Below, piece after piece: positions 5,765 through 7,870 of a stretch of DNA of 64,000 nucleotides (the stretch's first letter is position 1; each line of letters starts with the position of its first letter). The position numbers and the translations under genes are program-made. The notes beneath the pieces were generated by a model. The model was given only the letters and a program-made list of their open reading frames with translations, was not told the origin of the DNA and searched no databases. The DNA comes from Natrinema salinisoli (lineage in GTDB: Archaea > Halobacteriota > Halobacteria > Halobacteriales > Natrialbaceae): assembly GCF_020405205.1 (NCBI RefSeq), contig NZ_CP084469.1, positions 1,426,001-1,490,000 of the forward strand, written 5' to 3'.

Positions 5765-6778
5765 ATGCGAGCAGCAGCCTTCACCGACCTGATCGGCCCC
5801 GAGGGAGTGAGCCTCATCGACCGACCCGACCCCAAGCCCGGTCCCGGCGAGGCGGTGGTCGACGTCGACGCGTGCGGTATCAATCGCCACGACCTCTTCA
5901 TCCTCGAGGGGGACTCGGCGATGGTCGACGCCGACGACCTGCCGTTCGTTACGGGACTCGACGTGGCCGGCGTCGTCGGCGAGGTCGGCGCCGACGTTCG
6001 CGGTATAGAGCCCGGCGACAGGGTGGTCCTCTGTCCGAACCAGACCTGTGGAACCTGTCGGTTCTGTCGCGAAGGCCCGGAGAACACCTGTGAACGGTTC
6101 TCCCTGTATCACGGCGGGCTCGCGGAGTCCGCCCGCGTCCGGGCCGATCGCCTGATTCCGTTACCGGACGGCGTCGACACGACGACCGCCGCAGCGATTC
6201 CGACGGCGTACATGACCGCGTTCCACATGCTCCGGCGGGCCGAGGTCGGGCCGGGCGACCTGGTCTTCGTCCCCGGCGCGACGGGCGGCGTCGGCGTCGC
6301 CACCGTCCAGCTCGCGGCCGTCTTCGGTGCCGAGACGATCGGGACGTCCTCCTCGGCGACGAAACTCGAGCGCGTCCGCGAGCTCGGACTCGATCACGGG
6401 ATCGAATCGACGGCGATCGATGAGATCCGCACGGGAGTCGAGGCGATCGGAACGCCGGACGCAGTCATCAATCACCTCGGTGGCGAGTTCACCGAACTCG
6501 GTCAGTCGGTACTGCGCCGCGGCGGGACGATGGCGATCTGCGGTCGCACGGCCGGCAACGAGTCGACGATCGACATCTCGAACCTCTTCCTCGGCCACAA
6601 GCGCGTCGTCGGCTCCACGATGGGCACCCAGGACGACCTCCGGCGGCTCGTCGATCTCGTAGGCGACGGCGAGGTGGCGCCCGAAATCGATCGGACGTAC
6701 GCGCTCGAGGACACCGGCGACGCCTTCGCGGCGATGCAAGACCGGGAGAGCGTCGGCAAGATCGTCGTGGAGCCGTAA
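5765..6778 (+). CDS. Zinc-type alcohol dehydrogenase / quinone oxidoreductase family (MDR)
   Basis: A 337-residue medium-chain dehydrogenase with GroES-like N-domain and Rossmann C-domain. The nucleotide-binding motif is GATGGVGVATVQLA near residue 160. The structural-zinc lobe is complete: C-x5-C-x2-C-x2-C-x7-C in the stretch starting LCPNQTCGTC. At the catalytic zinc site the usual GHE is replaced by GLD (TGLDVAGVV), so the catalytic metal is probably missing and the enzyme is likely an NAD(P)H-dependent quinone/enone reductase type. The substrate is unknown. The ATG at 5765 gives a family-typical N-terminus (MRAAAF); the frame remains open further upstream only because it lies opposite the ferredoxin gene. 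Confidence 0.88.
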   Translation: MRAAAFTDLIGPEGVSLIDRPDPKPGPGEAVVDVDACGINRHDLFILEGDSAMVDADDLPFVTGLDVAGVVGEVGADVRGIEPGDRVVLCPNQTCGTCRFCREGPENTCERFSLYHGGLAESARVRADRLIPLPDGVDTTTAAAIPTAYMTAFHMLRRAEVGPGDLVFVPGATGGVGVATVQLAAVFGAETIGTSSSATKLERVRELGLDHGIESTAIDEIRTGVEAIGTPDAVINHLGGEFTELGQSVLRRGGTMAICGRTAGNESTIDISNLFLGHKRVVGSTMGTQDDLRRLVDLVGDGEVAPEIDRTYALEDTGDAFAAMQDRESVGKIVVEP

Positions 6779-6827: not shown

Positions 6828-6960
6828 CGGGTGGGAATGAAAGGGGCTTCCGGTCCGGGCGAACCCGGACGACGCAAGCACTACAGGGAGTGAGCCTGGC
6901 GAACGACCGAAGCGCACAGCGAGGCCCGGGAGTCCGGACCGGAAGGGGCTTTCAGGGTAT
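6828..6960 (+). repeat. Structured intergenic repeat element (candidate IS1341/TnpB-end relic or ncRNA)
   Basis: A 12-bp perfect inverted repeat (CTTCCGGTCCGG at 6847-6858, CCGGACCGGAAG at 6934-6945) encloses 75 nt. Both arms are bordered by the same direct word, AAGGGGCTT at 6841-6849 and AAGGGGCTTT at 6943-6952. A local hairpin, GTCCGGG-CGAA-CCCGGAC (6853-6870), competes with the long-range stem. The block is preceded by GGGTGGGAATGAAAGG. From memory, similar GGTGGGAATGAAAGGGGC sequences recur in haloarchaea near the 3' ends of IS200/IS605-type tnpB genes, where guide-like RNAs are made, but I could not check this. No tnpB remains here. Confidence 0.5.
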
Positions 6961-6982
6961 TGCCGTCGACGTCGAAAAGACG

Positions 6983-7045
6983 GGGCCGAAATACAGCGGT
7001 TCAGACGACTAGGCCGGAAGGCGCTGGGCCGAGCTATTTCGGCCC
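6983..7045 (+). repeat. 11-bp inverted repeat upstream of the SDR gene
   Basis: GGGCCGAAATA at 6983-6993 is the exact reverse complement of TATTTCGGCCC at 7035-7045, with a 41-nt spacer. A second pairing, GGGCCGA (7026-7032) with TCGGCCC (7039-7045), would form a local 7-bp hairpin using the same right arm. The right arm ends 18 nt before the ATG at 7064. It could be a 5'-UTR structure or the terminator of an RNA from the preceding element. Confidence 0.45.
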
Positions 7046-7063: not shown

Positions 7064-7870
7064 ATGACGAATATCGCCATTACCGGCGCGGCAGGGAACG
7101 TCGGCAGGGAAGCCGTCGACGCGTTTCCGTCCGACGACCACGAGCTCGCGCTCTTCTCCCACAGCGAAACCGAGGACCTCGATGCAACGCCCCTCGAGAT
7201 CACCGACAGAGAGGAATTTCTGGACGCCCTCGAGGACCAAGACGTGCTCATTCACCTCGCGGCTAACCCGTCTCCACGAGCCGAGTGGGACGAGGTTCGA
7301 GGGCCGAACGTCGACGGCGTCTACAACGCCTTCGCGGCCGCGGCGGAGAACGGGCTCGAGCGGGTGGTCTTCGCGAGTTCGAACCACGCGGTCAATATGA
7401 AAAACACCGTCTCGGGGATCCGGCCGGAGTCGACCGTCGGCAGTCCCGAGATCGTCCGGCCGGACGAGCCGACCGATCCCGACACCTACTACGGCGTCAC
7501 GAAGGTCTTCGGCGAGGCGATGGGATCGTACTACGCGAAGCGACACGGGTTCGAAGTGGTGACCCTGCGGATCGGCTGGCTGCTCACCCGGGACGAACTC
7601 CGGCAGGAGTGTGCGGACCGGGACGGTGCCGGCGAGCGCTACGCCCGCGCGATGTGGCTCAGTCCCGGTGACTGCCGACGAGTGCTCAACGCCGCCGCGA
7701 CGGCTACCATCGGGGGATCGCCGCTGATCGCACACGGCATCTCGGATAACTCCGAACGGTTCCTCTCGCTCGCCGAGACTATGCGCAACCTCAACTATCG
7801 GCCGCGGGACGACGCCGAAGCCGTGTTAGGCGACGAATCGGACGGTCGGGACGGCCTCGAAACGACCTGA
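7064..7870 (+). CDS. Azf-like NAD-dependent SDR (glucose-6-phosphate / uronate dehydrogenase type)
   Basis: A 268-residue extended SDR with nucleotide motif TGAAGNVG at the N-terminus, the Ser motif FASSNHAV near 105, the catalytic YxxxK as YYGVTK near 142, and AMWLSPGDC and HGISDN further on. The SSNHAV and AMWLS motifs resemble haloarchaeal Azf, the NAD-dependent glucose-6-phosphate dehydrogenase of the oxidative pentose phosphate pathway, and the related uronate dehydrogenases. I infer sugar or sugar-acid oxidation; the exact substrate is uncertain because these paralogues are numerous. It stands alone on the plus strand after a 285-nt structured intergenic region. Confidence 0.8.
   Translation: MTNIAITGAAGNVGREAVDAFPSDDHELALFSHSETEDLDATPLEITDREEFLDALEDQDVLIHLAANPSPRAEWDEVRGPNVDGVYNAFAAAAENGLERVVFASSNHAVNMKNTVSGIRPESTVGSPEIVRPDEPTDPDTYYGVTKVFGEAMGSYYAKRHGFEVVTLRIGWLLTRDELRQECADRDGAGERYARAMWLSPGDCRRVLNAAATATIGGSPLIAHGISDNSERFLSLAETMRNLNYRPRDDAEAVLGDESDGRDGLETT

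Follow-up and report, generated by a model that had tools for sequence, protein, structure and literature searches.

A class-wide family of structured mobile elements in haloarchaea with a candidate quadruplex-duplex fold

Introduction

The window, that is, the whole 64,000-nucleotide stretch of DNA that was analysed, holds a spacer between a zinc alcohol dehydrogenase gene and an epimerase gene that contains an inverted repeat, which raises the question of what such a structure is and how it came to stand there. A preliminary description saw in it nested alternative hairpins and offered three readings: a relic of an IS1341/TnpB 3' end, a non-coding RNA or a miniature mobile element. Here, positions 6829-6954 of the plus strand are identified as one member of a family of structured elements that recurs between genes, and its distribution, fold, movement and position relative to genes are considered in turn.

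The repeat and its parts

The perfect 12-nt inverted repeat first noticed at this site (6847-6858, CTTCCGGTCCGG, and 6934-6945, CCGGACCGGAAG, with 75 nt between the arms) is confirmed, as is the word AAGGGGCTT at both of its borders (6841-6849 and 6943-6951), though the repeat makes up just the inner portion of a more extended stem. The full stem has 21-nt arms (6838-6858 and 6934-6954) that are 86% complementary, because TGAAAG at 6838-6843 also pairs with CTTTCA at 6949-6954. The region 6838-6954 folds at -61.6 kcal/mol, compared with -43.7 +/- 3.4 for shuffled sequences (z = -5.4), and the tag at 6829-6848 is found in none of the shuffles of the window. The parts of the element and its surroundings are as follows.

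5765-6778, plus strand: neighbouring zinc alcohol dehydrogenase gene, outside the element (Pfam PF08240/PF00107)
6829-6835, plus strand: G tracts 1 and 2, GGG-T-GGG, with a one-base linker (T or C among copies); 97-100% G in alignment A2 and 96-99% in A3
6838-6843, plus strand: outer helix, 5' arm TGAAAG, pairing with 6949-6954; other families have the compensated forms TCAAAG/CTTTGA and TCGAAG/CTTCGA
6844-6846, plus strand: G tract 3, forming one strand of the internal GGG/GGG loop; 98-100% G
6847-6860, plus strand: proximal helix, 5' arm; compensatory changes in 13 of 14 pairs
6870-6885, plus strand: 5' half of the conserved core, CGACGCAAGCACTACA; invariant alignment columns
6886-6911, plus strand: distal hairpin of 2-bp steps split by tandem G.A, varying in length by module
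6912-6923, plus strand: 3' half of the conserved core, GCGCACAGCGAG, from the alignment
6932-6945, plus strand: proximal helix, 3' arm, from folding and covariation
6946-6948, plus strand: G tract 4; 95-100% G
6949-6954, plus strand: outer helix, 3' arm CTTTCA, from covariation and alignment
6955-6965, plus strand: 3' extension, the local version of a class-wide nGGTGTTCnC
7034-7039, plus strand: putative TATA-like CTATTT that would serve the downstream gene from 30 nt ahead of the ATG, on the downstream side of the element; conserved in orthologues with and without the element
7064-7870, plus strand: neighbouring NAD-dependent epimerase gene, outside the element (Pfam PF01370)

Distribution across haloarchaea

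The preliminary description had proposed a search of haloarchaeal genomes and a covariance-model analysis, and had set its own reading against the outcome that no other copies exist; many copies were found. BLAST with 191 nt recovers three copies in the window's genome and matches in 25 of the 29 congeners, while the covariance model R1, built from an alignment of elements (A1), identifies eight in the window's genome and up to 16 in one congener. With the best candidates per genome scored, R1 matches 337 of 391 genomes of the class, in 76 of its 86 genera, and in a phylum-wide draw all 48 of the 48 genomes with matches belong to the window's order. The segment GGGTGGGAATGAAAGG, previously singled out as a conserved element, is indeed a 5' tag kept across the class: the exact 19-nt tag occurs in 160 of 242 class genomes, with a maximum of 165 in one genome, and the reversed pattern used as a control has zero matches in every genome listed. 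Phage records and viral contigs contain no match to the element, and a viral origin was rejected on this ground; plasmids account for 12 records. Rfam 15 has no match at the gathering score, the tag is not found in the searchable literature, and the list of structured RNAs of Weinberg 2010 is without a haloarchaeal motif. This is a real, class-wide family of structured mobile elements, and it appears to be undescribed in Rfam and the searchable literature.

These searches also bear on descent from the 3' end of an IS1341/TnpB element, with its guide-RNA-type transcript. Both are small GC-rich hairpins near a GGTGGGA-like sequence, but all eight tnpB genes of the genome end in other hairpins (e.g. 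CCCACGACTTCAGTCGTGGG..GGATGTCA), none of them carrying the tag or followed by a copy of the element, and Rfam gives no match; this origin is rejected.

Two variants were observed within the family. A subfamily of 176-178 nt (L440, L441, L442, L446 and L449), 85-92% alike over about 310 bp in differing surroundings, is frequent on secondary replicons and looks recently mobile. In the window's own genome, a short copy (G000:C1:2614090-2614162, L458) keeps the tags and the G tracts while its whole core is replaced by a perfect palindrome.

Conservation of the fold

The structure shows strong covariation. In A1, 96% of cells are paired and 26 of 38 pairs have changed on both sides, a figure that none of 500 shuffles reaches, and the pairing signal collapses when the partner is slid by one column. 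The compensation is also seen at orthologous sites: upstream of endA (the Pfam tRNA intron endonuclease), where the element is retained across several genera of the family, 12 species preserve the fold and 19 of its 43 pairs are compensated, and at the window locus eight compensated pairs are found among seven species. Gene conversion between copies could be an alternative source of apparent compensatory changes. Judged from these comparisons, the fold is under selection and strongly conserved. The same cannot be said of the seven-pair tetraloop hairpin once thought to compete with the long stem: its sequence, GTCCGGG-CGAA-CCCGGAC, is present at 6853-6870, but among 28 copies it pairs 49% of cells, like shuffles, and is attributed to chance.

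The wobble pairs indicate which strand folds. On the G-rich strand, G.T exceeds A.C by 217 to 39 on alignments, which themselves lean towards structure, and by 81 to 21 (p = 2e-9) in an alignment-free count with the arms paired outward from the G tracts. The G-rich strand therefore folds single-stranded, as RNA or ssDNA; a cruciform, with both strands folding, would not yield such an excess. The earlier suggestion of a non-coding RNA thus pointed in the right direction insofar as a one-strand fold is under selection, with RNA the presumed form of that strand and ssDNA its alternative.

The G-tract frame and its swappable hairpin

The family has an invariant frame, GGG-Y-GGG-ANTGAAAG-GGG-C[hairpin]G-GGG-CTTTCA. 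In A2, which comprises 73 copies picked by model score rather than by the tag, the columns GGG-Y-GGG and GGG...GGG are 97-100% G, with T or C between tracts 1 and 2; since the copy-finding model rewards Gs, these figures are somewhat inflated. The outer helix TGAAAG/CTTTCA becomes TCAAAG/CTTTGA or TCGAAG/CTTCGA between families, both sides changing together. The insert between tracts 3 and 4 is interchangeable, with a length between 4 and about 300 nt. A common core is shared by 234 of the 292 distinct inserts and is inverted in a few, inserts of 4-8 nt exist with the frame kept, and a second, unrelated core (GACCCCTATC..GATATGTCG) recurs. At L115:+, L291:- and L356:- the core is flipped relative to the tags, as if inverted between its own arms. 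Copies with the second core (GACCCCTATC...GATATGTCGCTGAGCGACC; L348, L349, L342, L273 and L343) share the G-tract frame, and their CCCC could pair with the G tracts.

There are exactly four GGG tracts. Two of them make up a 3x3 internal loop, the other two stand a short way upstream, and this arrangement suggests a three-tetrad quadruplex between two helices. The conserved tracts and their variable linkers are those expected of a G-quadruplex, and folding with quadruplex energies predicts a G4 in five of the five shortest natural versions compared with 7-30% of shuffles. Thus, the element is probably a G-quadruplex fused to a hairpin (quadruplex-duplex), as far as such predictions can tell.

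Movement and retention

Direct traces of movement come from a Halorubrum-like genome (G169), which has 31 copies in 400 kb within larger conserved units whose flanks contain TATA and sometimes 57-bp tandem arrays. At an agmatinase locus, 26 of the 28 relatives that could be read have an empty spacer; G169 has an insertion of about 600 bp that contains the element, with inverted-repeat ends GGCTCTGTTGAA../..TTTCACCAAAGC and flanks TCGATCCC/TCGAACCC that form an 8-bp target duplication of a site present once in relatives; G273 has an independent insertion in the opposite orientation at the same locus. Terminal inverted repeats together with target duplication, the hallmarks of a MITE, are demonstrated only for some copies in G169, outside the window's own genus. 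On the evidence of these insertion sites, the element is mobile in at least one genus (Halorubrum-like), and the idea of a miniature mobile element has held up to that extent. No insertion sequence with ends matching the element units was found in the DNA examined.

Several observations accompany these copies. In G169 (L370-L389, e.g. L388:10200-10623), 57-bp tandem units, 7.4 copies in this example, lie directly beside the element; every unit repeats the 3' tag of the element, GGCTGGGGCTTTGG, and contains a TTTATAA box, so that these could be stacked promoters. The 58-bp repeats of halovirus HF2 were compared with these arrays and do not match. In a congener of the window's genome (G016, L123:6285-7283), an IS110-type transposase gene (MFIGIDVHKRYSQIAVLDQNG..), identified by eye, lies near the element.

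At the window locus the element is retained in seven of 29 species of the genus. G025 is missing exactly the hairpin, GGGCGGGAAT being joined to CGAGG, and G026, G018 and G013 keep fragments of the element; loss is therefore common, and retention in so few species, the remnants and the precise loss together indicate that the element is dispensable at this locus.

One may argue that the copies are inactive MITE remnants and the fold a fossil palindromic transposon end, given their inverted repeats, the remnants at orthologous sites and the MITE-like unit in G169. Dead copies, however, would not retain 96% pairing with compensation at orthologous sites, nor would they favour G.T over A.C, which makes this improbable. 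A similarly slim chance attaches to a REP/BIME-like ssDNA hairpin copied by a Y1 (IS200/RAYT-type) transposase. The 5' tag followed by an imperfect hairpin, the inverted pairs and the intergenic location all fit, and the single-strand asymmetry suits a transposase that reads one strand; yet no Y1 transposase (PF01797) is present in the copy-rich genomes G032, G035 and G037 (68-80 exact tags each), and the inverted repeats and 8-bp duplication of the demonstrated insertion are unlike Y1 products.

Genomic context

Not one of 273 copies from outside the Halorubrum-like genus (single loci apart) falls within a gene; the genes in this and the next count are those of a simple purpose-made caller. 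Among 202 independent downstream genes, the next gene is on the same strand in 120 cases and on the opposite strand in 82 (p = 0.009). Where the strand is shared, the start codon mostly lies 85-120 nt beyond the element's 3' end. Alignments of orthologous loci place a predicted promoter of the leaderless type some 30 nt ahead of the start codon, with about 50 unconserved bases between it and the element; copies thus stand upstream of promoters and outside leader regions. A riboswitch or 5' UTR leader was rejected on the same ground, the promoter-like motif (predicted start) being downstream of the element, and because the genes are unrelated. The neighbours share no common theme: they encode the epimerase, EndA, thymidylate synthase, a PALP enzyme, a HAD hydrolase, uracil-DNA glycosylase, DUF5804 and DUF5812.

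Copies also occur as 26 distinct head-to-head pairs with their 5' tags facing, mostly 25-30 nt apart. A weak A/T signal at -36, taken for a promoter of single copies, was traced to such head-to-head partners, and outside the Halorubrum-like genus the sequence that precedes single copies has no clear TATA signal. Inverted (+...-) pairs with a spacing of 1.5-4 kb were considered as composite transposons and rejected, each copy being upstream of its own gene.

This arrangement could indicate a host regulatory or small-RNA gene family, in which a cis-acting structured RNA or an ncRNA of about 130 nt serves the downstream gene and mobility has only spread the copies. The orientation bias and tight spacing to the next start codon would fit, head-to-head pairs give each divergent gene an element, the endA locus is kept with compensatory changes across several genera, and the wobble asymmetry is equally in line. 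Against this, the downstream genes are unrelated housekeeping genes, the intervening leaderless-type promoter places the element outside any 5' UTR, Halorubrum-like genomes have no orientation preference of this kind (15 same, 27 opposite), and the element is lost or decayed in relatives. A primary role in host regulation is thus possible, if unlikely.

Model and implications

The explanation towards which we lean, from comparative sequence evidence, is that the copies form a new family in haloarchaea: short interspersed elements, mobile but non-autonomous, and selected for the fold of one strand, a candidate quadruplex-duplex. The four GGG tracts would stack as a three-tetrad quadruplex bridging both helices, and the resulting quadruplex-duplex rod may be stabilised by multi-molar intracellular K+. 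Selection on the family would act on the folded strand, most likely as RNA from the element itself or from read-through, or otherwise as ssDNA recognised by a mobilising enzyme. Insertions presumably persist only in intergenic sites that precede promoters, and there the fold may modulate the transcription of neighbours. A bolder version, in which a class-wide mobile RNA or ssDNA with an invariant K+-stabilised three-tetrad quadruplex between two helices and a swappable hairpin would both spread and control neighbouring promoters, is offered only tentatively.

A structured repeat family that fills the intergenic space of most haloarchaea, with more than 100 copies in some genomes, provides a natural, evolution-tested quadruplex-duplex candidate in cells with extreme K+. 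It is also a candidate source of the as yet unexplained peak of quadruplexes upstream of Haloferax promoters, and makes tractable the question of how non-coding mobile DNA shapes archaeal promoters.

Relation to known systems

The closest described systems are the small mobile repeats (SMR) of Haloquadratum, MITEs and REP/BIME repeats. Apparently none of them has been described with the combination found here: a G-tract frame present throughout the class, a covarying hairpin that can be exchanged, and selection on a single strand. The SMR of Haloquadratum walsbyi are about 110 bp long with prominent inverted repeats, lack a transposase gene and occur in tens of copies per genome, their mover being unknown; SMR-A prefer IS605/PATE targets and make no target duplication (PMC3119063). 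Like them, the element is haloarchaeal, multi-copy, has inverted repeats and carries no transposase gene, but it is class-wide, intergenic and covarying with a GGG-tract frame, differences drawn from the description of SMR and not from their sequence. The units of about 600 bp in G169, with terminal inverted repeats and 8-bp duplications, resemble MITEs, including the haloarchaeal ones of IS families, whereas most copies elsewhere are about 125-140 nt and lack recognised IS ends. Conservation of the internal fold also goes far beyond the ends. Like RAYT-associated REP/BIME repeats, the element has a sequence tag on the 5' side of its imperfect hairpin, occurs in inverted pairs and is extragenic; in contrast, its tag is a G-tract, it is several times longer, and some copy-rich genomes have no Y1 transposase. 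TnpB omega/re-RNAs are likewise small structured RNAs tied to mobile DNA (here a candidate RNA), but the element has neither tnpB linkage nor a guide, and its hairpins differ. Finally, a 2026 paper reports that G4 motifs of Haloferax volcanii peak near -100 from transcription starts (PMC12873603). Although those motifs, compared here by description, are not described as a homologous family (PMC12873603), the element resembles these promoter-upstream G4s in its position, with its 3' end about 100 nt before start codons.
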